Assembly (NCBI GenBank): GCA_011620505.1
Contig: WOZA01000024.1
Span: 1 to 32,522 of the forward strand
DNA: 32,522 nucleotides
DNA from: Anaerolineaceae bacterium
Lineage (GTDB): Bacteria > Chloroflexota > Anaerolineae > Anaerolineales > Anaerolineaceae
Direction: 5' to 3'
This document shows, one piece after another, positions 16,815 through 30,416 of the stretch. The notes under the pieces were generated by a model. It ran no database searches and was not told where the DNA came from. It saw nothing but the letters and a program-made list of their open reading frames with translations. The translations under genes and the position numbers were made by a program. How positions within the stretch are numbered: the first letter of the stretch is position 1; the number at the start of each line of letters is the position of its first letter.

Positions 16815-17939
16815 CTAGAAGAGCAGCTTACCGCCCAGTACGCAGTGGCGGACCTCAAGCGTCTCAGCATCCAGCAGGGTAAGGTCAGCCCGTTTCCCTA
16901 TGGCGATGGAGCCGATTTCATCCTGCATACCCAACACCCGGGCTGGGTTTGCGGTGGTGGCGCGCAGCGCAGACTCGAGTGGAATGCCAAAGTTGATCAC
17001 CGCACGGCGGAAACATTCCGAAAGCGGAGTGGCACTGCCGGCAATGGTGCCGCTGGCGAGGGTGGCGAGGCCATCCTTCATGGTCACTTTTTGACCGCCC
17101 AACTCATATTCTCCATTTGGCATACCGCATGCCATCATGGCATCGCTAATCAGGCAGATACGATCTTCGCCAAAGATGCTGAATGCAACCCGGATGGCGG
17201 CAGGATGAACATGATGCCCGTCACTGATCAACTCCACGCTGCTGGCATAGTCAGCGGCTGCGCCAATGAGACCAGGAGCACGATGGTTGAAGGGGTTCAT
17301 GGCGTTATAGAGATGGGTGACGTGACTGGCGCCGCGGAAAAAGGCTTCTTTTGCCAGGTCATAATCGGCACTGGTGTGATGGAGGCTGACCACACAGATT
17401 TCGCTGGTGCGCGCGATGAAGTCCAGCGCGCCAGGCTTCTCTGGGGCGACGTCGTTGAGCCGGATGCGACCGCTGCAGGCATCATTGAGCTCAAGGAAGA
17501 AATCATAATCCGGGTCAATCAGGTTATTGGGGTCCATGGCGCCTTTTTTCTCAACGGAGGCAAATGGACCTTCGAGATTGATGCCGCGCATAACAGCTCC
17601 ATCTTCAATGGGGTTGTCCATAAACTCGCTCGCGACCCTGACCATGTTCAGTAGAACGGGTTTTTTCATCGCCATGGTGGTACCAAGGTAGCTGGTGACG
17701 CCAACAGATGCCAGGTAGCGGGCGATGTTCTCATGCGCTTCGCGGGTGCTGTCGCAGAAATCAGTGCCATATGCGCCGTGGATGTGAATATCAATAAATC
17801 CGGGAGCAACGATGCAGCCAGTGGCGTCCAGCACTTCCGACTGGCTATGAGGTTCGCTGATGCGGTCGAACTCAGTATAGACGTCCCCTTCACGCAGGGC
17901 GAAATCTTCGCAAAAAACAAGACCATCTTTAATTAGCAT
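16815..17939 (-). CDS. nagA: N-acetylglucosamine-6-phosphate deacetylase (copy 1)
   Basis: Removes acetate from GlcNAc-6-phosphate to give glucosamine-6-phosphate. This amidohydrolase shows PGFIDIHIHG (about residues 46-55), NLEGPF, the metal-ligand region VSLHHTSADY, THLYNAMNPF, SDGHHVHP and the catalytic-aspartate motif LISDAM, ending with the usual IGKRADLTLLD. The 374-residue length fits. GGTGAAAG precedes the ATG. It is divergent from the HAD/CutC pair and stands at the edge of the amino-sugar locus, where a second, more diverged NagA homologue lies on the other strand. This copy is the more canonical of the two. nagB (deaminase) is not in the window. Confidence 0.93.
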   Translation of the reverse strand: MLIKDGLVFCEDFALREGDVYTEFDRISEPHSQSEVLDATGCIVAPGFIDIHIHGAYGTDFCDSTREAHENIARYLASVGVTSYLGTTMAMKKPVLLNMVRVASEFMDNPIEDGAVMRGINLEGPFASVEKKGAMDPNNLIDPDYDFFLELNDACSGRIRLNDVAPEKPGALDFIARTSEICVVSLHHTSADYDLAKEAFFRGASHVTHLYNAMNPFNHRAPGLIGAAADYASSVELISDGHHVHPAAIRVAFSIFGEDRICLISDAMMACGMPNGEYELGGQKVTMKDGLATLASGTIAGSATPLSECFRRAVINFGIPLESALRATTANPARVLGMQDEIGSIAIGKRADLTLLDAETLEVRHCVLGGKLLF

Positions 17940-18032: not shown

Positions 18033-18815
18033 ATGATAAAAGCGGTATTCTGTGATGTGGACAATACCTTAACCAGCCCCATAACGCGCACCATCCCAAT
18101 CAGTGCTCTTGAAGCCATTCAGAAGGCGCGCAAAAATGGGGTTAAGGTGTTCGTCGCAACCGGCCGGCAAACCCGCGCCTATGAAGAAGGCAAGATATTG
18201 CAGGGCATCGCGTTGGATGGCTATGTGGCGGTCAATGGGCAGCTTTGTTACTTGCCGGATGGGACCATTATTCATAAGGCTGTACTTGATCCGCGGGATG
18301 TGGCCGTTATCTTGCGGCTGGCTCAGGAACTGAACTTTGCCTGCTGCCTGATTGAAGGAGATAAGATCTATCTGACGGGGATTGATGAAAACGTCCGTTC
18401 TTTCCATGAAATGATCCACATTCCATATCCGATGGTCACCTCGGCAGACGGGGCGGAAAGTCGCGATGTGCTTTCCATTGCGCCTTACATCAACTATGCG
18501 ACCCAAGCATTGATCACTCCCCACTTGAAGAGCAGTGAAATTGTGCGTTTTAACCCCTTTAACTGTGACGTGATCCCGCGCAAAGGGGGAAAGGACGTGG
18601 GCATGCAGGCTATGCTGGATTACTTTGAAGTGCCGATCGAGCAGACAATGGCTATTGGGGATGGGCAGAACGATATCAACATGTTGAAGGCGGCTGGGGT
18701 CGGGGTGGCGATTGGGAAGTGCAGCCCGGAAGTGATGGCTGCGGCGGATTATCACGCGCCTGAAGCTGATGAAGATGGCATCTGGCATACGTTCAAAAAG
18801 TTTGGGATCATCTAA
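18033..18815 (+). CDS. Cof-type HAD family sugar phosphatase
   Basis: A HAD-IIB hydrolase, probably dephosphorylating a sugar or similar phosphate in the cytoplasm. Motif I is DVDNT (residues 8-12; the usual DxDGT with Gly replaced by Asn, nucleophile Asp8). Motif II/III surroundings are VFVATGRQ and the conserved Lys in RKGGKDVGM. Motif IV is IGDGQNDINML. The cap is of the C2 type, as in Cof proteins. The 260-residue length is normal. It precedes cutC by 12 nt in one unit. A possible role is to relieve accumulation of sugar phosphate made by the PTS nearby; this is inferred from context. Confidence 0.85.
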   Translation: MIKAVFCDVDNTLTSPITRTIPISALEAIQKARKNGVKVFVATGRQTRAYEEGKILQGIALDGYVAVNGQLCYLPDGTIIHKAVLDPRDVAVILRLAQELNFACCLIEGDKIYLTGIDENVRSFHEMIHIPYPMVTSADGAESRDVLSIAPYINYATQALITPHLKSSEIVRFNPFNCDVIPRKGGKDVGMQAMLDYFEVPIEQTMAIGDGQNDINMLKAAGVGVAIGKCSPEVMAAADYHAPEADEDGIWHTFKKFGII

Positions 18816-18827
18816 TTGGAGATCGGA

Positions 18828-19580
18828 ATGGAAAAAGTGGTCATTGAAGTTTGCTGCGGTTCGGTGGATGATGTGGTGCGGGCAGCAGAAGCTGGAGCGG
18901 ACCGGGTGGAATTGAACTCGGCGCTGTTTGTTGGCGGACTGACTCCTTCGATTGGAGCGGTACTGGAAGCCAAACTCAGGGTGGACATCCCCGTCATCAG
19001 CATGATACGTCCGCGCGCAGGAGGGTTCTGTTACACCGACCTGGAGTTCGAGACCATGCTGCGGGATACGCGCGAACTGGCGAAGGCAGGCACGGATGGT
19101 TTTGCGGTTGGTTTTCTAACTACTGAAGGATGGTTGGATGAAGAACGCTGCAAGATTTGGGTAGATGCAGCGGGAGAGAGGGAATTGGTGTTCCACCGCG
19201 CCTTTGATATTATGAAAAATGAACCGGAAGAAGTGCTGCCGCGGCTGGCTGAGCTCGGTTTTAAACGGGTTCTGACCAGTGGGAGGGAACCTTCTGCACC
19301 GGCAGGAGCAGAAATGATCAAACGTTGTGTGCAAGTGGGGGCGGTGGAAGTCCTGGCGGGGGGCGGCGTTCGGGCGGAAAATGTGCAGGAGTTAATTCAA
19401 AACACTGGCTGCCGGCAAGTACACTTCACCTGCCACACGAGGCAAAGCGATCCATCCGTGCGGGGAGCCAAATTATCCTTTGGGTTGCCAAATATGCCAG
19501 AAGATGATAAGTTCGATCTAATGGATATTAAAAGGTTAACCGGCTTGATCAGGTTGATCCGCACTTTACCCACATCCTAA
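18828..19580 (+). CDS. cutC: CutC family TIM-barrel protein
   Basis: A CutC homologue of 250 residues. Family features are EVCCGSVDDVVRAAEAGADRVELNS at the N-terminus, GGLTPSIGAV, the ISMIRPRAGGFCY strand, FHRAFDIM, VLTSGREPSA, and the AGGGVRAENV loop. The ATG at 18828 is preferred over the upstream TTG because GGAG precedes it by six bases. CutC was named for copper homeostasis, but the E. coli phenotype was later traced to the MicL small RNA in the cutC 3' region, so the protein's biochemical role is open. Here it sits between a sugar phosphatase and a PTS amino-sugar run, which points to a metabolic role. Confidence 0.9.
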   Translation: MEKVVIEVCCGSVDDVVRAAEAGADRVELNSALFVGGLTPSIGAVLEAKLRVDIPVISMIRPRAGGFCYTDLEFETMLRDTRELAKAGTDGFAVGFLTTEGWLDEERCKIWVDAAGERELVFHRAFDIMKNEPEEVLPRLAELGFKRVLTSGREPSAPAGAEMIKRCVQVGAVEVLAGGGVRAENVQELIQNTGCRQVHFTCHTRQSDPSVRGAKLSFGLPNMPEDDKFDLMDIKRLTGLIRLIRTLPTS

Positions 19581-19613: not shown

Positions 19614-19674
19614 ACCAAAATAGACCACTTGTATTGACACTGGTGATTTTTGTATTATTATAGAATTGCCAGTG
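19614..19674 (+). promoter_or_regulatory. Promoter with GntR/NagR-like operator candidates
   Basis: TTGACA (19634-19639) is followed by an AT-rich stretch with overlapping -10 candidates (ATTATA at 17 bp, TATAGA at 19 bp). Just upstream, the 16-mer at 19614-19629 matches 11 of 16 positions of the DasR/NagR-type dre consensus ACTGGTCTAGACCACT, with the right half TAGACCACT complete. A further inverted repeat CACTGG (19638-19643) / CCAGTG (19669-19674) flanks the -10. The layout suits repression of the downstream SIS-PTS run. No GntR regulator gene lies in the window. Confidence 0.5.
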
Positions 19675-19759: not shown

Positions 19760-20464
19760 ATGGACAATGAAGTGTTCGAGATGGCATATAAGCTCATCGG
19801 CAAACTCCAGGAAACTCAGGGAGAAAACATTCTCGCGGCTGCGCGCTGCATAGCAGACACGTTCGAACATGGCGGCATTATACAAGCTTTTGGATCCGGG
19901 CATTCTTATGCCGGGGCAATTGAGCTTTGTGGGCGGGCTGGTGGCTACGTACCCTCGAAAGTGATCAAAGATCCAGCTGGTGGTATGTATGAATCCATCC
20001 AGGGTGTGGGTGAAATCCTGATGAAGAAAGTTGAGATCTTGAAGGAGGATGTGGTTTTCATCATTTCCAACTCAGGTCGCAATCCTTTACCAATTGAGAT
20101 TGCCTTACAGGCAAAACAAAGGGGCGCAAAAGTAGTTGCTCTGACTTCCGTCAGCGCAAGTTCCAAACTTAGTTCAAAGCATCAGTCCGGCAAACGCTTG
20201 TTTGAGGTGGCAGATGTAGTCATTGACAATCAGGTTCCTGATGGCGATGCCAGCATCCAGCTTGAAGGGCTCGATACCGCTATTTGTGGTATGTCTTCGA
20301 TTGTCACCTCGGTTGCGCTGCAGGCTGTCGTGCTTGAATCGGCGAAGATGCTCCTCGCAAGGGGTATCACGCCGCCATTCTTTAAGTCACAGAATATCGA
20401 TGGAGGTGAAGAATATAACGACGCATTGCTCAAGAAGTACTTTAATCGGATCAATCATATGTAG
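19760..20464 (+). CDS. SIS-domain sugar-phosphate protein, UPF0309-like (copy 1)
   Basis: A 234-residue SIS (sugar isomerase) domain protein of the UPF0309 type. The phosphosugar-binding signature is AFGSGHSYAGAIELCGRAGG (about 43-62). The second half is VFIISNSGRNPLPIEIALQAKQRGAKVVALT, with the Ser-rich phosphate site SNSGRN. Members bind or isomerise phosphosugars, or cleave them as MurQ does, but substrates are mostly unknown. The start is moved 66 nt downstream of the track start, to the ATG after AGAGGTG; this also places it sensibly below the promoter. It is the first gene of the PTS run. Confidence 0.85.
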   Translation: MDNEVFEMAYKLIGKLQETQGENILAAARCIADTFEHGGIIQAFGSGHSYAGAIELCGRAGGYVPSKVIKDPAGGMYESIQGVGEILMKKVEILKEDVVFIISNSGRNPLPIEIALQAKQRGAKVVALTSVSASSKLSSKHQSGKRLFEVADVVIDNQVPDGDASIQLEGLDTAICGMSSIVTSVALQAVVLESAKMLLARGITPPFFKSQNIDGGEEYNDALLKKYFNRINHM

Positions 20465-20471
20465 TTAATCA

Positions 20472-20485
20472 GGAGGGAAACCTCC
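20472..20485 (+). other. GNRA-tetraloop hairpin before PTS IIC
   Basis: GGAGG-GAAA-CCTCC forms a perfect 5-bp stem closed by a GNRA tetraloop, eight bases after the SIS stop. It hides a Shine-Dalgarno-like GGAGG; the true AAAGGAG of IIC lies further on. It may stabilise or process the message. Confidence 0.45.
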
Positions 20486-20512
20486 AAAACTAATGAAAGG
20501 AGTTTGACCTAA

Positions 20513-21253
20513 ATGAGTACGTTTCTTCTCGCTTTATTCTTAGCAATCTTTACCGGCTTAATGATTGTGTTTGCGTCATTGGCCATGGGCGGCATCTACA
20601 ATCCGCTCATTTTCGGCGTCGTCACCGGTCTTTTGGTCGGCGATGTTCGGCTGGGTCTTGAGGTTGGTGCAATGTGCGCCCTCTATGACATTGGCTTCTA
20701 TACCTACGGAGGCGCGACAACGCCTGACTATAACGTAGGGGCAATGTTTGGCGTGGTCGTCGCGAAACAGAGTGGTGACGTCAACCAGGGTATCATTATC
20801 GGTACCGTTGTTGCCCTGCTCATGTCGTGGTTCGACATTCTTGGCCGCGGTGTTACAACCGTCTTCCAGCACGGTGGCGACAGAGCCTTGGCCAACAGAG
20901 ACATCAAAGCCTTCGAACGCTGGCATCTGCTCGGCACCCAGGGTTGGTTCTGGAGCCGTTTCATCCCCGTGTTTATCGGCATGATGCTGATTGACAATTA
21001 TCAGGTGATTTCCAACTTTATCAACAATTACGCCTGGATCAAGGATGGTCTGGCTGTAATTGGGAAGGCTCTCCCAGCGGTCGGCTTTGCACTGCTGCTT
21101 TCATATATGGATATCAAGAACTTCTGGCCATTTATGTTAATCGGCTATGCACTCTATGCTTTTATGGGCGTTCCTACGCTCGGTCTGGCCATTATCGGTA
21201 TTGCCCTCGGCTATCTCTTCACCAACTTTATGAAAAAAGAGGAGGCAAGGTAA
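20513..21253 (+). CDS. PTS mannose/sorbose-family transporter subunit IIC
   Basis: Integral membrane channel subunit of a mannose-family phosphotransferase system, which imports and phosphorylates sugars with IID and the IIAB domains. The 246-residue protein is mostly hydrophobic helices. Family features include FASLAMGGIYNPLIFGVVTGLLVGDVRLGLEVGA near the N-terminus, where IIC-Man proteins carry a similar Gly-rich re-entrant segment, YGGATTPDYNVGAMFGV, and a C-terminus rich in membrane helices ending in KKEEAR. AAAGGAG precedes the ATG. IID follows after one base. Family members move mannose, fructose, sorbose, GlcNAc or GalNAc, and the exact sugar cannot be read from sequence. Confidence 0.9.
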   Translation: MSTFLLALFLAIFTGLMIVFASLAMGGIYNPLIFGVVTGLLVGDVRLGLEVGAMCALYDIGFYTYGGATTPDYNVGAMFGVVVAKQSGDVNQGIIIGTVVALLMSWFDILGRGVTTVFQHGGDRALANRDIKAFERWHLLGTQGWFWSRFIPVFIGMMLIDNYQVISNFINNYAWIKDGLAVIGKALPAVGFALLLSYMDIKNFWPFMLIGYALYAFMGVPTLGLAIIGIALGYLFTNFMKKEEAR

Positions 21254-21254
21254 G

Positions 21255-22082
21255 ATGGCACGCACAAATGCTAAACTCTCTGAACAGGCTTTAAAGAAAG
21301 CCGCCAACCGTCACAACTGGGCTCTGCAGTGGTGCTGGAACTACGAACGTATGCAGGCTTCCGGCTTTGCATATGCCATGGTTCCGATCATGAAAGAGCT
21401 CTATGACACCAACGATGAGGTTTGCGAAAACCTCGAACGTCACATGCAGTTCTACAACTGCCATCCGGGCGGTTCAGCCGTGATTATGGGCGCAGCGGTT
21501 GCCCTTGAAGAAGGCTACGAAACTGACATGTCCAACAGCATCAAGGTTGCCTTGATGGGACCTCTGGCGAGCATTGGCGACACAATCCAGGCTGTGCTGG
21601 TGAAACCGATTGCCTACATCATCGCTGCTGGAATGGCAGCCGAAGGCAGCTTCCTCTCCCTGCCCGTGATCATCCTTCCACTTCTGGCTCTCTTCCTGGC
21701 GAGATGGCCGCTCTTCAAATGGGGTTACAAACGCTCTGTTGCCATCCTCGAAGATATCGAGGGCAACACTGACTTCAACACCATGCGCAAGGCTGCTCAA
21801 ATCCTCGGGTTGACGGTTGTTGGTGGATTTGTGCCAAGCATGATTGGCCTGACACTGAAGTACACTTACTCCCAAACTTTAACCGATCCAGCGACCGGAC
21901 AGGATGTGGTAAAGACCGTCGCTCTGCAAGATACGCTTGACGGCATCCTGCCGAAACTGCTGCCAATCGCGCTGGTTGCATTCTGCTACTGGCTGATCAA
22001 GAGAAAGGTCAATCCCGTTCGGGTTATCGCAATCGTTGCGGTGATTGCTTTTGTCCTGGGCGCGCTCGGCGTTTTGGGCTAA
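21255..22082 (+). CDS. PTS mannose/sorbose-family transporter subunit IID
   Basis: Membrane subunit that pairs with IIC. The N-terminal soluble part shows the IID pattern QWCWNYERMQASGFAYAM and RHMQFYNCHP (most members have FFNTHP), then GAAVALEEGY and MGPLASIGDTIQAVLVKP, which is highly characteristic of IID. The C-terminal half has several membrane helices. The 275-residue length is typical. It starts one base after IIC. No domain fusion is seen. Confidence 0.93.
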   Translation: MARTNAKLSEQALKKAANRHNWALQWCWNYERMQASGFAYAMVPIMKELYDTNDEVCENLERHMQFYNCHPGGSAVIMGAAVALEEGYETDMSNSIKVALMGPLASIGDTIQAVLVKPIAYIIAAGMAAEGSFLSLPVIILPLLALFLARWPLFKWGYKRSVAILEDIEGNTDFNTMRKAAQILGLTVVGGFVPSMIGLTLKYTYSQTLTDPATGQDVVKTVALQDTLDGILPKLLPIALVAFCYWLIKRKVNPVRVIAIVAVIAFVLGALGVLG

Positions 22083-22097
22083 AATTTAGTACAATTG

Positions 22098-22131
22098 TTG
22101 GTGGCGGAGAAAATCCCTTCTCCGCCACCAA
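22098..22131 (+). other. Perfect 14-bp hairpin between IID and IIB
   Basis: TTGGTGGCGGAGAA and its exact complement flank a six-base loop. No T-tract follows directly, although TTTTTT occurs about 13 nt later. It probably tunes the IIB share of the operon message by partial termination or RNA protection. Confidence 0.65.
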
Positions 22132-22164
22132 ACTATACGAGGGATTTTTTGGAGAGAGCAAAAT

Positions 22165-22650
22165 ATGATTAAGCATCTTCGCATTGATAACCGTTTGATC
22201 CACGGACAGGTCGCCGTTACATGGATGCGCCGTATTAACGCGGATGCGATTGCAGTTGTTAACGATGACGTTGCCAAAGATCGCATTCAAAAGATGGCGC
22301 TGCCCCTTGCCGCAAGAGACGCGAAAGTCTTGGTGCTGTCGCATCAAGAGCTGCAAGACTACGTCAAAGAGCACCCGGATGAATCGCTTTTTGTAATCGC
22401 CAAATCCCCGATGGATGCCCTGCGCATCCTGGAGAGTGGGCTTGAAGTTGGCGAAGTCAATGTGGGGAATGCCGCCCCGATCGCCGGAACCAAGTATGTC
22501 ATGGTGGATAAATCAATCGCTGCCACCAAAGAAGACGCGGAAGTGTATCGTAAGATCGCGGAACTACGGGGCGGCAAACTGATGACCCAGACGGTCTCCA
22601 CTTATCAACCTCAGGACTTTCTCCAACTGCTGCGCAAAGCCGGCCTTTAG
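22165..22650 (+). CDS. PTS mannose/sorbose-family subunit IIB
   Basis: Cytoplasmic subunit that accepts phosphate from IIA and passes it to the sugar held by IIC/IID. The active-site signature RIDNRLIHGQVAVTW lies at residues 6-20, with phosphorylated His13. The 161-residue length matches a stand-alone IIB. GGAGAGAG precedes the ATG. A IIA domain is neither fused to it nor present elsewhere in the window, so it must come from another locus. Confidence 0.93.
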   Translation: MIKHLRIDNRLIHGQVAVTWMRRINADAIAVVNDDVAKDRIQKMALPLAARDAKVLVLSHQELQDYVKEHPDESLFVIAKSPMDALRILESGLEVGEVNVGNAAPIAGTKYVMVDKSIAATKEDAEVYRKIAELRGGKLMTQTVSTYQPQDFLQLLRKAGL

Positions 22651-22692
22651 GCTCCCGCGGCAGCATTCGAACGAATGCCCGTTTAAATACGA

Positions 22693-22735
22693 AAATAGTG
22701 GTGGTCACTTCGAGGATTCGGGGTGACCACTATTT
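22693..22735 (+). other. Bulged hairpin after PTS IIB
   Basis: AAATAGTGG-TGG-TCAC pairs with GTGACCACTATTT (one 3-nt bulge). Only a weak T-rich tail follows. It may be a partial terminator or an RNA-stabilising element between IIB and the next gene. Confidence 0.5.
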
Positions 22736-22767
22736 ATAGACGCAACAAGTGAATAGGAAACCCTGCC

Positions 22768-23403
22768 ATGCAATTGAAAATCGCCAAAATTATTAATAGC
22801 CTGCTTATCGTTCTGACCGTAATTATCTTAGCGCTTGCGGGAGGCTATATCTTTGTATACAACCGCTACCCCGAATTTAGGACGACTTACTTAATTATTT
22901 TCGTGCTTGTTGCTATTGGATTGATGCTCTTTTTCAGATGGATGGAAGAGGGCTGGGACAAACGTGTCATTACCCGCATGGTCAAAGATGGTAAGGTCGC
23001 GTTGGCAAATATCAAACACTCGGAACGCGTGATGCGCATGCGCGACAGCACATTTACCAATTTCTGGCTGTATGAATTCGTGGCAGATTTGGTAACTCCC
23101 GATCTCGTAAACCTGAACGAAGTGAAATTCTGGGAAAAAATGAATGCGGACACCCAACAGATTCCCAACGGCTCCGTCTTTGTGACGTACGACCCCGAAA
23201 AGCCAACCCAAATCTTTGTTGTGCCAAATGTGTTGATCAGCCAGCTGCCCGAGCTGATGCCCGTGGTGCGTAAGATTGAAGCGAATGCGTCCATTCGGTA
23301 CCTGGACGCGTATTACAACAAAGGCATGGTTATCAAAAGCATGAAAGACTCGCTGGCGGAGCAGAGCCAGGCGGTGGAAGAAAAGAAAAAGAAGGAAGGC
23401 TGA
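22768..23403 (+). CDS. Two-helix membrane protein of unknown function in the PTS operon
   Basis: I do not recognise this family. Two membrane helices occur at about residues 9-31 (SLLIVLTVIILALAGGYIFVY) and 38-57 (TTYLIIFVLVAIGLMLFF). A soluble domain of about 140 residues follows, with WEKMNADTQQIPNGSVFVTYDPEKPTQIFVVPN in its core, ending in a charged Glu/Lys tail. After the second helix a positively charged RWMEEGWDKR segment suggests a cytoplasmic C-terminal domain. AGGAAA precedes the ATG. It ends one base before the Gfo/Idh gene, so it belongs to the operon. It is not a IIA subunit as far as I can see. Confidence 0.7.
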   Translation: MQLKIAKIINSLLIVLTVIILALAGGYIFVYNRYPEFRTTYLIIFVLVAIGLMLFFRWMEEGWDKRVITRMVKDGKVALANIKHSERVMRMRDSTFTNFWLYEFVADLVTPDLVNLNEVKFWEKMNADTQQIPNGSVFVTYDPEKPTQIFVVPNVLISQLPELMPVVRKIEANASIRYLDAYYNKGMVIKSMKDSLAEQSQAVEEKKKKEG

Positions 23404-23404
23404 G

Positions 23405-24400
23405 ATGATGAGGATTGGGACAATAGGAACCGGGATTATCGTTGATGGTTTTTTTGATGCGGTCAGCAAGACCGACGACGCAGAAGTGGTTGTGATCTAC
23501 TCGCGCAATGAAGAAACCGCGCAGGCTTTTGCAGCCAAGCACAACCTGACAAAATGGCATACAGACCGGGATGCTTTTCTGAATGACCCTGAGATCGACG
23601 TCGTTTATGTAGCCTCACCCAATTCGCTCCATTACCAATGGACGCTTGATGCCCTGAAGGCAGGCAAAGGGGTCATTTGCGAAAAACCCTTTGTTTCGAC
23701 CCGCGCGGAGTGTGAGACCCTGCGTAATCTTGCTCACGAAAAAGGCTTGTTCCTGGTGGAGGCTATCACTGTCCCGCATCTGCCCAACTTCCAATTGATC
23801 CGCGACCATTTGGATAAAATCGCTCCGGTCAGGTTGGTGCAGCTCAACTTTTCGCAGTACTCAAGCAAACACAAAGCTTTTTTGGAAGGCAAGAATCCGA
23901 ACATCTTCAACCCTGCCTTTGCTGGCGGCGCCTTGATGGATATCAACTACTACAACTTGCGCTTCATGCTTGATCTGTTCGGCGAGCCTGAGAATGTGCG
24001 CTATTTTGCCAATCTTGCGCACAATGGCATCGACACATCCGGTGTGCTGCTGATGACCTATCCGGGTTTTCTGGCAGAGGCTGTAGGGGCAAAGGACAGC
24101 CGCAGCGAGAATATGGTGCAAATCCAGGGCGAAAAGGGTTACATCAAAGTGCCCAAGGAAAGCAGCCGCTGCATCTCGTTCACGGTAGTCACCCAGAATG
24201 GCGAAGAAACATTCAATGAGCAGGCAGATGATAACGTGCTTGTCTATGAGATGCGGGAATTCGCTGAAATGTACCAAACTAACGACCTGGCCAAACGAGA
24301 TGAATTGTTGGAAATGACCTGCCGTGGCATGAAGTGGCTTGAGATAGCCCGCAAGGACGGCGGAGTATATTTTGAAGGAGAAACGCGATATGTGGATTAG
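23405..24400 (+). CDS. Gfo/Idh/MocA family oxidoreductase
   Basis: NAD(P)-dependent sugar or polyol dehydrogenase of 331 residues. The Rossmann fold is at the N-terminus (RIGTIGTGIIVDGFF), followed by VYVASPNSLHYQWTLDALKAGKGVICEKPF, whose EKP lysine is catalytic in this family. The second domain contains GGALMDINYYNLRFMLDLFG. Substrates vary widely (inositols, sugar acids, glycosides via 3-keto intermediates, amino sugars). It begins one base after the membrane protein and overlaps the next gene by 11 nt, showing tight co-expression. A role in modifying an unusual amino sugar is inferred from context. Confidence 0.9.
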   Translation: MMRIGTIGTGIIVDGFFDAVSKTDDAEVVVIYSRNEETAQAFAAKHNLTKWHTDRDAFLNDPEIDVVYVASPNSLHYQWTLDALKAGKGVICEKPFVSTRAECETLRNLAHEKGLFLVEAITVPHLPNFQLIRDHLDKIAPVRLVQLNFSQYSSKHKAFLEGKNPNIFNPAFAGGALMDINYYNLRFMLDLFGEPENVRYFANLAHNGIDTSGVLLMTYPGFLAEAVGAKDSRSENMVQIQGEKGYIKVPKESSRCISFTVVTQNGEETFNEQADDNVLVYEMREFAEMYQTNDLAKRDELLEMTCRGMKWLEIARKDGGVYFEGETRYVD

Positions 24401-25607
24401 ATCAACCCGGATTTACACTGAAGATGGTCTGTTGGACGGCTGGATGCGGATTGAAGAGGGGAAGATTATCCAATTTGGCAAGGGTGAAAAAGAAGGCGCG
24501 GTTGATTTTGGCGACCTGCGCATCATTCCCGGCATATTTGATACGCATATCCACGGCACCCAGGGCTATACCATGTGGGAGGAAGGCGAGAGTGGGGATA
24601 TTGATTTCCAGTTGGATGGCTTTTTGAAGGGTGTGGCGAGTGAGGGTGTGACGTTAGTTCTCCCAACGCTTTTTAGCGCTACCGGTGACGGCGAGGGCGC
24701 CCTGGAAGTACTGAAGAAAACCGCGAATCGAGTCGGCAAGCCGCAAAACGGCGCGAACGTGGCGGGTGTGCACTTTGAAGGCCCCTACTTGAACCGGGTC
24801 GGCGAGAAAGGCATCCGTCCGAAACCCCCCACGATCAATCTGGATTTTGTGCGTAAGGCGATCGAGGCTGGGAGCGGACATCTAAAACTGATGGGGTTGG
24901 CACCAGAACTGCCCCAGTCAGAAGAATTGGTCGACCTCCTGATAGAGCATGGCGTAATCGCCGCGTTTACCCACACGGATTGTAATTCAACCCAGGCATT
25001 TGCCGCTTTCGATCATGGCATTACCGTGGCGACGCATCTGTGCAACGTGATGACCGGAATTCACCACCGCGATGTGGGCGGGTTGGGGGCAGCGCTGCTG
25101 GATGAACGCGTTACCTGCGAGCTGATCTGCGACGGCTTGCACGTCTCTAATCCGATGATCGAGATTGTGATGCGTGCCAAGCCCCACGAAAAAATCATGC
25201 TGATTTCCGATTGCACCGGTTATTCCGGCGCGCCAACCGGTACCTATAGGGGCTTCCTGGGGCATTCAGGCGAAGTGATCGTGGACGATTTGGGCTTTGT
25301 CCGCGAAACAGGTGGGCGTCTGCGCGGGAGCAGTAAGCCGGTGCTCTATGGCATCTGGAACCTGGTGGAAAACGTCGGGCTTGAGATGGACGACGCCTTG
25401 AGGATGGCCTCACTCGTGCCTGCCCGAAAATATGGTTTTGGAGATAAAAAGGGTTCGCTGAAAATTGGCAAAGACGCTGATTTTGTGGTGATCAGTGATG
25501 ATTACAAAGCACTTGAAACTTACGTGGAGGGGCGCAAGGTCTTCGACCGTGCCAGTGAAGGAGATAAGATTTTTAACCAGCAAATGCTGGAGACTTTACT
25601 GAGGTGA
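24390..25607 (+). CDS. N-acetylglucosamine-6-phosphate deacetylase-like amidohydrolase (copy 2)
   Basis: A NagA-family amidohydrolase of 405 residues, more diverged than copy 1. Motifs are PGIFDTHIHGTQGY, HFEGPYLNRVGEKG, AAFTHTDCNSTQAF, THLCNVMTG (HLYNAM in canonical NagA), CDGLHV and LISDCTG, which retains the catalytic aspartate. The ATG at 24390 follows GAAGGAG and is preferred to the TTG in the track. It overlaps the Gfo/Idh stop by 11 nt and is followed by the ceramidase-like gene after two bases. The changes around the substrate pocket suggest a related but different N-acyl amino-sugar phosphate. Confidence 0.85.
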   Translation: MWIRSTRIYTEDGLLDGWMRIEEGKIIQFGKGEKEGAVDFGDLRIIPGIFDTHIHGTQGYTMWEEGESGDIDFQLDGFLKGVASEGVTLVLPTLFSATGDGEGALEVLKKTANRVGKPQNGANVAGVHFEGPYLNRVGEKGIRPKPPTINLDFVRKAIEAGSGHLKLMGLAPELPQSEELVDLLIEHGVIAAFTHTDCNSTQAFAAFDHGITVATHLCNVMTGIHHRDVGGLGAALLDERVTCELICDGLHVSNPMIEIVMRAKPHEKIMLISDCTGYSGAPTGTYRGFLGHSGEVIVDDLGFVRETGGRLRGSSKPVLYGIWNLVENVGLEMDDALRMASLVPARKYGFGDKKGSLKIGKDADFVVISDDYKALETYVEGRKVFDRASEGDKIFNQQMLETLLR

Positions 25608-25609
25608 AA

Positions 25610-26857
25610 ATGATCAAAGTAGCAACATCCACCCGCTATGTAACCCCGCAGGAACCCTGTTTTATGGGCGGCTACGGCATGCGCAGGCAGAAGTCTGAAG
25701 GCATCCTCGATGAGTTGAAATGCACTGCAGTACTCCTGGAGATCGATGGGTCGCCCATTGTGATGTGCGATGTGGAAATCCTGATGATCACATCGGAAAT
25801 CGTCACAGCAGTCAAAGAAAGACTATTGCGCGAGTATGGCATCCAGCCTGAAATGGTCACCATCGCTACCACCCACACCCATGCCGGCCCGGAGATCCGT
25901 TCCGAGCGATTGCCAATGTTTGATGAAGAAAGTGATGATAGCTTTTGGCGGCGATATCAGGACTTCTTGAAGGAAAGGATCTTTATCACCATCGCTGACT
26001 GTTTTGAAACTGAGCTGAGAGAAGCTGAGGCCTGGTATCGTACCGTGAAAATTGAGGGGTTGTATGGCAATCGGAATGGGATTGGCAAGCCCGAGGACAA
26101 AGATGTCACGTTGATCGTCTTCAAAAACGAAAAAGAGGTGTTGGCTGCAATTGTGAATATTGCCTGCCACCCGACCGTGTTGGGCGCCCAGAACCTGCAG
26201 ATCAGCAGTGACTTGCTGGGGTACATCAGCCGTGGTGTCAAAGAAAGACTGGGAGTGTATCCACTGATGATGCAAGGCGCTTCCGGGGATATGAGCAACC
26301 GCAACTACCGCCAGGGGCACGATGCACAAGAGCTGACCCGCACGGGTGAGGGCATTTTGGCACAGCTATTTGCCAGCCAGGAATTAGCCCCGCTCAGCCT
26401 GGACAAACCGGTGGTCGAACCTTACCACTGGGAAACCAGTTATCCAGTGGATAAAGAAGCTCTCAAAAAACTGCAGATGCAAATCAGGCAGCAAATGGCA
26501 GCCGAAGAAAATTACGACAAGCACAAGATCCTGCTTTCTTCGGATTATGCGATTGACCTCAAGTTGAAGAAAGAGGAAATTACCGCCAATTTTGATGCGG
26601 CAATTATCCGAATGGGAGATCTCGAAATCTGTAAGCAGCCCGGGGAAATGTTCTCGCGCTTTGGCATGAAGATCAAAGCCGCCAGCAAGGCAAAGCTCCC
26701 GCTCATCTGGGGTTATGCCGATGACTATGGCGGCTATCTTGCGGACGAGGGTGAGTATGGCAAGACCTACGAAAGCATCATGTCACCCATGCCAAAAGGC
26801 GCTTCGGAAGAAATTACTGATGACCTGGCCCGTTTAATGGCAGGAGAAACGGAGTAA
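25610..26857 (+). CDS. Neutral/alkaline ceramidase N-terminal-domain-like hydrolase
   Basis: Resembles the catalytic domain of neutral ceramidases, zinc amidases. It has no signal peptide, so it is cytoplasmic. It begins near GGYGMRRQKSEGILDELKCTAVLLE and carries the zinc-binding THTHAGPE (about residues 85-92), CHPTVLG and a later QGASGDMSNRN, where ceramidases have a Ser/His-rich catalytic pocket. The fatty-acid specific C-terminal domain of true ceramidases is absent (415 residues against about 650). The ATG follows GAGGTG; the track GTG overlaps it. Between a NagA homologue and a SIS protein it probably hydrolyses an amide on a sugar derivative rather than a ceramide. That is inference. 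Confidence 0.75.
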   Translation: MIKVATSTRYVTPQEPCFMGGYGMRRQKSEGILDELKCTAVLLEIDGSPIVMCDVEILMITSEIVTAVKERLLREYGIQPEMVTIATTHTHAGPEIRSERLPMFDEESDDSFWRRYQDFLKERIFITIADCFETELREAEAWYRTVKIEGLYGNRNGIGKPEDKDVTLIVFKNEKEVLAAIVNIACHPTVLGAQNLQISSDLLGYISRGVKERLGVYPLMMQGASGDMSNRNYRQGHDAQELTRTGEGILAQLFASQELAPLSLDKPVVEPYHWETSYPVDKEALKKLQMQIRQQMAAEENYDKHKILLSSDYAIDLKLKKEEITANFDAAIIRMGDLEICKQPGEMFSRFGMKIKAASKAKLPLIWGYADDYGGYLADEGEYGKTYESIMSPMPKGASEEITDDLARLMAGETE

Positions 26858-26859
26858 AG

Positions 26860-27591
26860 ATGAAATATTCAAATGAATACCTGGAACATTTGGAAGGAAT
26901 CCTTGAGAAGATCAAGGCGAATGAAGAGCAATACCGCGAAACTGCAGCCGCGATATTGGAACGAGTCAAGCAAGGAGGAATGATATTTCCCTTTGGCACC
27001 GGGCATGGGCATCTTCTGGCACTTGAGATGTTCTATCGCGCTGGCGGCATGGTGCGGGTTAATCCGATACTGACCGAAGAACTGATGCTGCACAAATCAG
27101 CCACAGGTTCCTCAGCTTTTGAACGCAGCGAAGGCAAGGCTGAGCCACTGCTGGAGGAATTCAAGGTCAGTGAAAAGGATGTGGTGATTGTGTTCTCGAA
27201 CAGCGGCATCAACCCGCTGACCATCGAGATGGCTTTGGGTGCAAAAGAACGCGGCGCTCTAACCGTAGCTCTGACCAATTTGAACCATTCACGTCCACTG
27301 CAGAGCCGCCACCATTCGGGATTGAAATTGTATGAGATTTGCGACATTGTGCTCGATAATTTTGGTGTCTTGGGCGATGCCTGCGTGAAGGTTGCTTCGG
27401 GGATCAAGATCGCGCCGACATCCACGGTCTCTGGAGCAGCGATTGTGCATACCCTGACTGCCATGATGGTTGAGCTGGCGGAGGCAGAGGGCTATGAACT
27501 CGAACTATACACTTCCGGCAACGTGCCCAATGGGCACGAACGCAACCTGGCGCTGATAGAAAAGTACAAAGGTGTTATTAAAAGCCTCTAA
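26860..27591 (+). CDS. SIS-domain sugar-phosphate protein, UPF0309-like (copy 2)
   Basis: Paralogous to the SIS gene at the head of the run. FPFGTGHGHLLALEMFYRAGG replaces its FGSGHSY phosphosugar signature, and VIVFSNSGINPLTIEMALGAKERGALTVALT matches its second half. It is 243 residues long. It starts two bases after the ceramidase-like gene with GGAG upstream. Substitution of the SIS active site (SGHS to TGHG) suggests a different substrate. A non-catalytic binding role is also possible. Confidence 0.85.
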   Translation: MKYSNEYLEHLEGILEKIKANEEQYRETAAAILERVKQGGMIFPFGTGHGHLLALEMFYRAGGMVRVNPILTEELMLHKSATGSSAFERSEGKAEPLLEEFKVSEKDVVIVFSNSGINPLTIEMALGAKERGALTVALTNLNHSRPLQSRHHSGLKLYEICDIVLDNFGVLGDACVKVASGIKIAPTSTVSGAAIVHTLTAMMVELAEAEGYELELYTSGNVPNGHERNLALIEKYKGVIKSL

Positions 27592-27625
27592 GCCGGACAC
27601 CTAACCGGAATGGAAAGGAATTGTT

Positions 27626-28480
27626 TTGAAGAGAGAATTCAATAAAGAGAATATCAAGTTAGCCGCTTTCGATCTGGATGGGACGATTCTGACCAAGAGT
27701 TACATTACCGAGGTGACCAAAGCTGCCATTACACGCCTGGCTGAAAGCGGGGTGAGGACGATCGTGGCGACCGGTCGGCACTTATTCCAATTACCCCCCG
27801 CGGTATTGGACATTTCCAGTTTCCAGATTGCCATTGGTTCCAACGGCGCGATGATTGGCAATATTCGCAGTCACGAACTTTACCATTTTGATGGTTTCGA
27901 TGTGGAAACCGCTTTGCGATTTCTGCGCTGGTTACCCACCGTGACCAATTCCTTCCACATCGCTTTTCAAGACGGTTCTGGCTACCTGATGCGAGAGGAT
28001 TACGAGCGGTTGCTCGATTTGCAGCCCAACGATGTGGAGAGGGAAAAATCAGCTCGGGAATACCAGCGGGTTTATACGATCCTTGATGACCTTGATCATG
28101 TCGAACAAACCATGAAGCCGGTGGCTAAGTTTGGTTTCAGGATGGCAAAAGAGGAAGACGTGCCTGCCGCGGTTCAGCTGGTGCGGCAAAATTTTGGGTT
28201 TGAAGCTGCCATCACGGATTATCAGACCATCGAGGTGACAAAAGCCGGCGTGACGAAAGCTTCCGGGTTAATACGTGTGTGTGATCACTATGGACTGAAG
28301 CCCGAAAATGTGATTGTCTTCGGCGACAGCGGTAACGATGTACCGGCGATGAGAATAGCCGGCTATGCCGTGGCGATGGGCGACGCCGCCCCAGATGTAA
28401 AAGCCGCGGCAGATGAAGTCACAGCAAGCATCCATGATGATGGCGTGGTCCTGGCGATTAATCGTTTATTTGACCTGTAA
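27626..28480 (+). CDS. Cof-type HAD family sugar phosphatase (copy 2)
   Basis: A HAD-IIB hydrolase with the canonical motif FDLDGTI (motif I), IVATGRH, and motif IV GDSGNDVPAM. The protein is 284 residues. The start is a TTG five bases after GGAAAGGAA; no ATG is as well placed. Unlike the first HAD protein it has standard DxDGT. It sits between SIS copy 2 and murQ, with only 9 nt to murQ. It may dephosphorylate an intermediate or prevent toxic build-up of phosphorylated sugars. Confidence 0.8.
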   Translation: MKREFNKENIKLAAFDLDGTILTKSYITEVTKAAITRLAESGVRTIVATGRHLFQLPPAVLDISSFQIAIGSNGAMIGNIRSHELYHFDGFDVETALRFLRWLPTVTNSFHIAFQDGSGYLMREDYERLLDLQPNDVEREKSAREYQRVYTILDDLDHVEQTMKPVAKFGFRMAKEEDVPAAVQLVRQNFGFEAAITDYQTIEVTKAGVTKASGLIRVCDHYGLKPENVIVFGDSGNDVPAMRIAGYAVAMGDAAPDVKAAADEVTASIHDDGVVLAINRLFDL

Positions 28481-28489
28481 AGGAGAAAA

Positions 28490-29404
28490 ATGGCAGTTCA
28501 ACCCTCTGAAATTAGGAAATTGAAGACTGAACAGCGCAACCCTGCAACTCTGGATATTGACCTGCTTCCCACGCTGGCTATGGTGCGGATGCTGAACGAT
28601 CAAAACCGGGTGCTGGCTGACGCGGTGGACGAGCAGGCTGAACAGATAGCGAAAGCTATCGAGCTCATTACTGAACGCATGCAGCGCGGAGGACGCTTGA
28701 TCTATATTGGCGCAGGCACCAGCGGCAGACTTGGTGTGATGGATGCCGCTGAGATCCCGCCAACCTTTTCATACCCTCCCGAGGGAGTGGTTGGCTTGAT
28801 TGCTGGCGGTGACCTCGCCCTTCGTGGGGCAGTGGAACACGTTGAGGATGATCCCCTGGCAGCCGCTGAACAGCTAAAGGCTCTCGGTCTATACCAGAAC
28901 GATGTCGTGTGCGGCATCGCTGCCAGTGGGCGGACGCCCTATGTGATTGGCGGGTTGGATTACGCCAAGAGTGTTGGCGCGGGGACAATCAGCGTTGCGA
29001 ATAACAAGCACAGCGAAATTGGCAGACATGCGGATGTGGCGATCGAAGTTGAAACCGGACCGGAAGCGCTTTCAGGCTCAACCCGCCTGAAGGCTGGCAC
29101 CGCCCAGAAACTGGTGTTGAACCTGCTCTCAACAGGGACGATGATTCAGCAAGGCAAAACTTACAGCAACCTGATGGTGGACGTCAAAGCGACGAATGAG
29201 AAACTGCAGGCGCGCTGCCTGAACATCCTGCGGGAAATCTTCCCCGCGTTGGAAACCGAGCGCCTTGCGGAAGCCCTGGCACGTGCAAATGGCAGCGTGA
29301 AACTGGCGGCAGTCATTATCAAAACCGGGCTTCCAGTGGAGCAGGCGCGCGCTGAACTGGAACGGCACGACGGGCATCTGCGCCGCGTCTTTGGGGAGGC
29401 ATAA
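28490..29404 (+). CDS. murQ: N-acetylmuramic acid 6-phosphate etherase
   Basis: Cleaves the lactyl ether of MurNAc-6-phosphate to give GlcNAc-6-phosphate and D-lactate in peptidoglycan recycling. The SIS-type fold shows IYIGAGTSGRLGVMDAAEIPPTF (about 71-93; Glu88 aligns with the catalytic Glu of E. coli MurQ), the second acidic site in GAVEHVEDDP, GIAASGRTPYVIG, EALSGSTRLKAGTAQKLVLN and LMVDVKATNEKL. The 304-residue length is standard. AAAGGAG precedes the ATG. The dehydrogenase gene follows after one base. Together with NagA it supplies glucosamine-6-phosphate from muramic acid. It is the best-defined enzyme of the run. Confidence 0.96.
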   Translation: MAVQPSEIRKLKTEQRNPATLDIDLLPTLAMVRMLNDQNRVLADAVDEQAEQIAKAIELITERMQRGGRLIYIGAGTSGRLGVMDAAEIPPTFSYPPEGVVGLIAGGDLALRGAVEHVEDDPLAAAEQLKALGLYQNDVVCGIAASGRTPYVIGGLDYAKSVGAGTISVANNKHSEIGRHADVAIEVETGPEALSGSTRLKAGTAQKLVLNLLSTGTMIQQGKTYSNLMVDVKATNEKLQARCLNILREIFPALETERLAEALARANGSVKLAAVIIKTGLPVEQARAELERHDGHLRRVFGEA

Positions 29405-29405
29405 G

Positions 29406-30416
29406 ATGCTGGCGAGAACCGTCATCATTCCAGCCAAAGGACGAGCGGAAGTTGTGGAGGAAGAGCTCGATACCAGCCGTTTACAGCCCAACGAAGCCAT
29501 CATCCAGGCAGAAGCCAGCATGATTAGCGCCGGCACAGAACTCTCGCGCGTGTTCGAGATCAAGAAAGGCTTTAGCTACCCTGTGCGCCCGGGCTATTCG
29601 GCGGTGGGAAAAGTGCTGGCGAAGGGGGAGGGGCTGACCGACCTGCAGGTTGGGGACCGGGTGTTCTATACCGGACCGCACGCATCGATCTGCCGCTTCT
29701 CCCGCGGGAACCGTACCCAGGGTCCGATGATCTTTAAGTTGCCTGAGGGCATTAGCCCACAGGAAGGCTCGTTGATCACGCTGGCATTGGTGGCCATCAG
29801 CGGCGTGAACAGCGTGGAAGTCCGTTTGGGCGATCGGATAGGCGTGTTTGGCATGGGAATGATTGGGCTTTTGGCAGCACTGATGCTCAAGAAGCTTGGG
29901 GCAGAGGTGGTGGCAATTGACCCGGTGGTGGAGCGCTGTGCCCAGGCGCAGCAGATGGGCATTACACAGATCGTAGATTGCCCGGCGGAAGAGCAGCTGG
30001 CGCAGATCCAGGCGCGCTTTGGCGGGCTGGACGCGGCTGTGGACGTGACAGGCGCGGCACGAGCTATTGAGACGGCAGTTCTTTCTACCAAGAAATACGG
30101 GCAGGTGACGCTGCTGGGCACCCCTCGCGCAGCCTGCACCCTGGATGTGACCCCCATGCTGAATGCCATCCACATGCGCATGCTGCGCGTGACCGGGGCA
30201 TTCAACAGCCTGGAACCGGTGTTTGAGAGCGAAGGCATGCGCATGAACGTGGCGCGCAACTTTGAGACCGTTTGCGGCATGATCTTGAGCCGCGAACTGC
30301 CAGTTTCGTGGCTGATCAGCCATGTGATCAAGCCTGAGGAAGTGGAAAGAGCCTACCACGGCTTGATGTTCGAACCGGATCTGTACCACTGCGTGGTGAT
30401 TGACTGGAGCAAGTAG
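29406..30416 (+). CDS. Medium-chain zinc-type alcohol dehydrogenase-like protein
   Basis: An MDR-superfamily oxidoreductase of 336 residues. The NAD(P)-binding GVFGMGMIGLLAALMLKKLGAEVVAID is at about 150-175. The N-terminal catalytic domain carries MISAGTELSRVF, the GTE pattern of the bi-domain threonine-dehydrogenase-like subgroup, where a Ser stands in place of the usual zinc-binding Cys; the four-cysteine structural zinc cluster is also missing. The start is the ATG one base after murQ (GGGGAGG upstream), not the track start inside murQ. It is the last gene of the PTS run. The substrate is unknown, plausibly a hydroxylated sugar derivative. Confidence 0.85.
   Translation: MLARTVIIPAKGRAEVVEEELDTSRLQPNEAIIQAEASMISAGTELSRVFEIKKGFSYPVRPGYSAVGKVLAKGEGLTDLQVGDRVFYTGPHASICRFSRGNRTQGPMIFKLPEGISPQEGSLITLALVAISGVNSVEVRLGDRIGVFGMGMIGLLAALMLKKLGAEVVAIDPVVERCAQAQQMGITQIVDCPAEEQLAQIQARFGGLDAAVDVTGAARAIETAVLSTKKYGQVTLLGTPRAACTLDVTPMLNAIHMRMLRVTGAFNSLEPVFESEGMRMNVARNFETVCGMILSRELPVSWLISHVIKPEEVERAYHGLMFEPDLYHCVVIDWSK

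Follow-up and report, generated by a model that had tools for sequence, protein, structure and literature searches.

What does a mannose-family phosphotransferase system (PTS) import when its genes stand in line with that of the etherase MurQ, which acts on phosphorylated N-acetylmuramic acid (MurNAc)? The question is raised by a window of 32,522 nt, contig WOZA01000024.1, one of the 168 contigs in the 1.78-Mb metagenome-assembled genome (MAG) of an Anaerolineaceae bacterium (Chloroflexota; 87.8% complete, 0.5% contamination). Positions 19760–30416 of this window are filled by 12 genes, all on the + strand, which encode in 5′ to 3′ order a SIS protein (SIS1), the PTS components IIC, IID and IIB, a membrane-anchored protein (TMx), a Gfo/Idh/MocA oxidoreductase, a NagA-type deacetylase (NagA2), a ceramidase-fold hydrolase (Cer), a second SIS protein (SIS2), a Cof-type HAD phosphatase (HADb), MurQ and an MDR-family oxidoreductase. 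The initial annotation had counted thirteen genes; their common strand and close packing hold, the count does not. Successive junctions measure 48, 1, 82, 117, 1, −11, −4, 2, 34, 9 and 1 nt; 9 of the 11 range from an overlap of 11 nt to a gap of 48 nt, the remaining two being IID/IIB (82 nt) and IIB/TMx (117 nt). This spacing, together with the setting in which the genes are conserved, suggests that all 12 are co-transcribed. The block is an amino-sugar-phosphate operon of a known kind, new in its combination of genes, and very probably serves the uptake and breakdown of amino sugars such as the muramic acid of cell walls. On balance, we favour the view that the whole locus is one catabolic operon importing an N-acetyl-hexosamine, most probably MurNAc, with a second branch formed around the SIS proteins and Cer.

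The mannose-family PTS and MurQ

The three PTS genes all exceed the cut-offs of the mannose/fructose/sorbose family: IIC (20513–21253; PF03609, 5.8e-49), IID (21255–22082; PF03613, 7.9e-79) and IIB (22165–22650; PF03830, 2.1e-36). The IIB translation carries the DNRLIHGQ motif, which holds the phosphoryl histidine, and IIC matches ManPTS IIC structures with an E-value of about 1e-15. Enzyme I (EI) is encoded elsewhere in the host genome, on contig C21, and NagB on a third contig. The sole mannose-type IIA found in the genome lies on contig C59 (L115:4847–5257, − strand), alone beside a uracil phosphoribosyltransferase gene and away from IIB, IIC and IID. MurQ (28490–29404) scores 372 bits against the TIGR00274 cut-off of 302 and keeps the equivalents of E83 and E114 of E. 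coli MurQ, which we take to be the catalytic glutamates; judged by score and by these residues, it is a full member of the family.

Conservation was surveyed in 29 genomes of the genus, that of the host included, and in 147 genomes of the family. The whole block, with its upstream and downstream neighbours, occurs in the same order in the host and in four congeners (L024–L027), while in two further congeners (L028 and L029) it is interrupted by contig ends and is collinear as far as it can be read. Chance does not explain the arrangement, since several species share this order of genes, with proteins 69–99% identical. The ceramidase-like gene is present at 79–97% identity in six relatives besides the host, and MurQ exceeds its cut-off in 7 of the 29 genomes, which are exactly the seven carriers of the cluster. 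TMx (22768–23403), an orphan with hydrophobic N-terminal helices, was found in five of the family genomes, every one of this genus; it reaches the cut-off of no family in Pfam or NCBIfam, and its structure model is poor (pLDDT 45.9). In one congener (G304; L025:13900–14904) about 1 kb of extra DNA separates Cer from SIS2, and in another (G315; L027:9353–10248) the Gfo/Idh gene appears as two overlapping tblastn pieces, suggesting a frameshift or an assembly error. Close relatives of the host met in a scan of a genome collection are the Anaerolineaceae/Chloroflexi MAGs UBA6133, UBA5838, Chloro_02 and WAS_Bin_29.

The union of a mannose-family PTS with MurQ, which the initial annotation had set apart from the MurP system, is upheld: several species preserve it as one block, and the other MurQ loci that were read lack it. 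Among 400 sampled Chloroflexota genomes, 99 encode MurQ; 40 of the neighbourhoods were read, and MurQ was found again in 39 of them. The genes met near MurQ were those of a BadF-type kinase (23 of the 40), NagA (17) and a two-SIS-domain protein (13), and none of these 40 neighbourhoods contained a mannose PTS, a NagS-like SIS gene or a ceramidase-like gene. The mannose PTS was also missing from the five plasmid MurQ loci inspected, four of which have a PTS of the single-chain EIIC or glucose type, while the fifth has an MFS transporter and AnmK. The rarity of the pairing applies to this Chloroflexota sample and these five plasmid loci only. In a quick tree, the MurQ of the host groups with Bacillota, enterobacterial, Collinsella and three Chloroflexota copies (support 0.97) and is separated from the majority of Chloroflexota MurQ. 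A gain from outside is likely.

NagS-like SIS proteins and the ceramidase-fold hydrolase

SIS1 (19760–20464) and SIS2 (26860–27591) belong to the NagS-like UPF0309/PRK02947 proteins, scoring 260 and 272 bits with NF002805 (cut-off 135). Both match the NagS structure 9eol (E-values of 1.5e-39 and 5.8e-34, respectively) as well as 3cvj. NagS of Streptomyces coelicolor (SCO4393) dehydrates N-acetylglucosamine 6-phosphate (GlcNAc-6-P) to 6-phospho-chromogen I, a product that NagA can deacetylate; residues H53, R64, E94 and D179 are essential, and S91 is important, not essential (PMC12680351). The equivalents of the four essential residues are invariant in a 14-member alignment that includes SIS1 and SIS2. 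SIS2 also keeps the equivalents of S91 and N228 and falls into a long-loop subtype together with NagS and most ceramidase-linked copies. SIS1 belongs to a short-loop subtype without the S91 equivalent, as do the copies at L039, L040, L075 and L112. Locus L032 has both subtypes, the short-loop form beside the PTS and the long-loop form beside the ceramidase-like gene, as in the host operon. A third NagS-like SIS gene of the host (contig C160; L136:6931–7773, + strand) lies head to head with the gene of a protein containing TPR and lytic transglycosylase (SLT) domains, and the same head-to-head arrangement is found in G302 (L139:8308–9057), where the partner is an unannotated 831-aa open reading frame. 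A link of this third protein to cell-wall turnover is possible.

Cer (25604–26857; 417 aa) is recognised by PF04734 at 1.6e-13, and a profile search with it found neutral ceramidases (2zws, 6e-33). Its AlphaFold model (pLDDT 92.5) had neutral ceramidases (2zws and 4wgk) as the sole significant Foldseek matches, with TM-scores of 0.72–0.76 over the query. The HxH, R, H and E site positions are kept, and a GDVSPN-like motif carries serine S231, presumably the nucleophile. With 28 bits against the NF041649 cut-off of 1200, Cer falls below the neutral-ceramidase equivalog and has neither its full length nor its C-terminal domain. Because it is short and its translation has no N-terminal hydrophobic segment that would suggest a signal peptide, Cer probably acts in the cytoplasm. 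The role of a secreted, lipid-acting ceramidase was rejected on the absence of this segment and on the sugar-phosphate genes around it. The preceding gene, NagA2 (24390–25607, start ATG 24390), had been annotated as a NagA homologue and encodes a diverged deacetylase of the NagA type. It scores 214.9 bits, slightly under the nagA equivalog cut-off of 225.65 (TIGR00221), matches NagA structures with an E-value of 3e-39 and aligns E, H, H and D with E131, H195, H216 and D273 of E. coli NagA, which we take to be the metal ligands.

Outside the genus, the SIS and Cer genes were followed by a genome-collection scan with one conserved peptide pattern, from which the best 80 ceramidase-like loci were kept, so that the frequencies are biased. 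Four of these loci come from the host genus. Among the other 76, the fetched stretch contains a NagS-like gene in 15, in none of which MurQ is present. The contexts of the pair are a PTS, NanE and an RpiR regulator in Clostridium UBA701; a PTS, a NanE-like protein, NagA, a HAD protein, a two-SIS-domain protein and Gfo in Coprothermobacter UBA10526; an MFS transporter, a BadF kinase and NagA in Zymogenus relatives; a BadF kinase and NagA in Bipolaricaulota; GH84 in the Bacillota MAG-64; and SSF in Opitutae. PTS-linked copies occur in other Chloroflexota at L031 and L032 (L039 repeats the L031 contig), and a diverged form is found in the congener G309 (L030). In a Thermococcus MAG (L037:5932–11254), genes for NagA, a NagS-like SIS protein, a GNAT acetyltransferase and an M14 carboxypeptidase are divergent from the ceramidase-like gene. 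The deeper conserved unit is the NagS-like SIS protein with the ceramidase-like hydrolase, present in bacteria and archaea and, outside the host genus, without MurQ. The simplest summary would be that an amino sugar arrives as its 6-phosphate, either through a PTS or through a transporter and a kinase, and that this 6-phosphate is processed by the SIS/ceramidase-fold pair, in many cases together with NagA.

Proposed pathway and alternatives

The products of the operon may be arranged in two branches. IIB, IIC and IID, together with EI and the lone mannose-type IIA, would import an N-acetyl-hexosamine, most probably MurNAc and perhaps GlcNAc or N-acetylmannosamine (ManNAc) too, and phosphorylate it at C6. 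MurQ would then remove D-lactate from MurNAc-6-P to give GlcNAc-6-P, and NagA1 or NagA2, with NagB from elsewhere in the genome, would finish the standard route. We consider this series, from the import of an N-acetylhexosamine including MurNAc to NagB, fairly likely. AnmK was not found in the 29 genus genomes, and no BadF/MurK-type kinase exceeds its cut-off in the seven carriers; for this reason the MurNAc-6-P of the carriers is most likely made by the PTS, within the limits set by MAG incompleteness and by kinases of other families. More speculatively, in a second branch, the NagS-like SIS proteins might eliminate at C3 to yield an enamide like 6-phospho-chromogen I, whose amide Cer, with NagA2, would cleave, while the two oxidoreductases and the HAD phosphatase would dispose of, or make use of, the reactive carbonyl product. 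The Gfo/Idh/MocA protein (23405–24400; PF01408, 2.4e-26) has 2ho5 and 4iq0 as its closest solved structures. The MDR oxidoreductase, which is alcohol-dehydrogenase-like and encoded by the last gene of the operon (29406–30416, start ATG 29406 or TTG 29391; PF00107, 1.2e-16), matches MDR structures weakly. HADb (27626–28480; PF08282, 2.5e-45) reaches 134.4 bits with TIGR00099 (cut-off 137).

A single amino-sugar pathway, as had been proposed from the gene content, is the best reading, and the gene set proved to be conserved when the neighbourhoods of relatives were surveyed. Several observations nevertheless weigh against it. NagS was reported in 2025 as confined to Streptomycetaceae, the substrate of distant homologues being left open, and when homologues from Clostridium, Paenibacillus and Acidothermus (26–36% identity) were assayed, they dehydrated GlcNAc-6-P negligibly or not at all, so that the substrate of the SIS proteins may differ (PMC12680351). 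Because of this behaviour of homologues outside Streptomycetaceae, SIS1 and SIS2 are not assignable as NagS enzymes; they probably catalyse a reaction of the NagS type on a related substrate. In SIS1 the S91 equivalent is replaced. No NagS-like gene accompanies 61 of the 76 ceramidase-like loci outside the genus, and the hydrolase family therefore has other roles as well. On the Enterococcus raffinosus megaplasmid pCX012922 (L140:9763–15225), a ceramidase-like gene 31% identical to Cer stands with genes for an amidohydrolase, an unnamed product and a beta-glucoside PTS IIABC, and no annotated SIS gene lies nearby. Finally, two of the carriers, G304 and G315 (both about 88% complete), yielded no EI gene.

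The PTS might instead import another amino sugar, either GlcNAc or ManNAc or else an N-acyl variant, with MurQ a passenger using MurNAc-6-P made by an unrecognised kinase. This reading, which we consider rather unlikely, would account for the finding that other Chloroflexota, Clostridium and Coprothermobacter have a SIS/Cer/PTS core that is not joined by MurQ and in two cases is accompanied by a NanE-type ManNAc-6-P epimerase. It is at odds with the kinase results given above and with the linkage of MurQ to the PTS wherever the contig of a carrier extends over the two. The initial annotation had taken the SIS and ceramidase-like genes as signs of a modified or amide-linked MurNAc. On this reading the substrate would be, for instance, a lactyl-peptide or muramic lactam, whose amide would be cut by Cer after import. 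The intact site residues and apparently cytoplasmic nature of Cer and the presence of MurQ in the same operon are in its favour; however, MurQ is missing from all 15 loci where the pair occurs in other lineages, and the pair stands in other phyla beside NagA, NanE, GH84 or BadF-type kinases. The claim is not sustained, and we regard it as improbable. A dehydration branch of amino-sugar-6-phosphate metabolism explains the SIS proteins better than a peptide or amide substituent does, since they are relatives of NagS. Least probable of all, the PTS would transport mannose or some other unrelated sugar, and the genes would form several unrelated adjacent units; the distance of IIC from characterised homologues and the 82- and 117-nt gaps between IID, IIB and TMx could be read in this way, but the other junctions are tight, a single conserved promoter-like block is present, and the same co-occurrence with amino-sugar genes is seen in other phyla.

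Returning to the favoured two-branch operon, it is tempting to speculate further that the SIS/ceramidase-fold pair represents a widespread, undescribed route in which a 2-acetamido-hexose-6-phosphate is dehydrated by the NagS-like enzyme, the enamide is opened by the ceramidase-fold protein acting as an amidase, and ammonia leaves the resulting imine with no need for NagB. In this operon MurQ, which is known to work by way of a related unsaturated intermediate, would have been plugged in behind a mannose-family PTS. This extension we hold to be doubtful.

Flanking features and relation to known systems

A promoter-like site, TTGACA-16-TATTAT (19634–19661, + strand; 11 of 12 consensus matches), lies ahead of SIS1 in a block conserved in five species. 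A 9-base match to a NagR/DasR-type half-site (TAGACCACT, 19621), upstream of this site, was rejected as an operator because it is not conserved in two relatives (ATAAACC), and no MurR/RpiR regulator is encoded among the 12 operon genes and the three upstream genes. The latter are those of NagA1, an N-acetylglucosamine-6-phosphate deacetylase (16815–17939, − strand; TIGR00221, 283.6 bits), a divergent neighbour kept in relatives; of HADa, a Cof-type HAD phosphatase (18033–18815, + strand) above the TIGR00099 cut-off; and of a CutC-family protein (18816–19580, + strand; PF03932). HADa is a probable separate short unit upstream of the operon. CutC copies of 79–96% identity are found only in cluster-bearing species, in six of the seven carriers. 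The HADa and CutC genes (18033–19580) keep their synteny in these species and may have moved together with the operon. Downstream, hutI (30482) was dismissed as a member of the operon; its gap of about 65 nt is shared with G302 but widens to about 170–390 nt in four other relatives. HutI serves histidine breakdown.

Parts of the locus resemble several known systems. As in MurP–MurQ–MurR of E. coli and the similar Priestia, Lacticaseibacillus and Collinsella plasmid loci, PTS import with C6 phosphorylation would be followed by MurQ; however, MurP is of the glucose family, whereas here IIB, IIC and IID are of the mannose family, MurR is missing from the cluster, and NagS-like, ceramidase-like and oxidoreductase genes are added. 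The kinase route MurT/MurK–MurQ of Tannerella (PMC5790795) and the BadF-kinase/MurQ loci of Chloroflexota share the sequence from MurNAc-6-P through MurQ to NagA, but there a separate kinase phosphorylates after uptake. With Streptomyces NagS (PMC12680351), SIS1 and SIS2 share the fold, the four essential residues and the coupling to NagA, although they are more distant than the Streptomycetaceae orthologues (at least 58.7%), and NagS is a single-gene locus whereas the pair described here is operonic and known from sequence. Cer has the catalytic fold and zinc-site residues of the neutral ceramidases of P. aeruginosa (2zws) and human (4wgk), in contrast to which it is short (417 aa against 646–688), lacks an apparent secretion signal and stands in a sugar-phosphate context. 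The mannose-family amino-sugar PTS operons aga/gam (E. coli, PMC3668189; Streptococcus, PMC5018945) likewise combine such a PTS with a NagA-type deacetylase and SIS proteins, but here the SIS proteins are NagS-like rather than of the AgaS type, and MurQ and a ceramidase-fold enzyme are added. No literature describing this gene set was found in a search that left most subscription journals outside.

The main interest of the locus lies in the pair of NagS-like and ceramidase-fold proteins, the substrate of which is now a well-posed question. Across several bacterial phyla and archaea, the distant homologues of NagS acquire both a partner that keeps recurring, the ceramidase-fold hydrolase, and a context of amino-sugar phosphates, so that their function becomes testable. 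The operon also suggests another way of bringing MurNAc to MurQ, in anaerobic Anaerolineaceae that possibly feed on dead bacterial cell walls.

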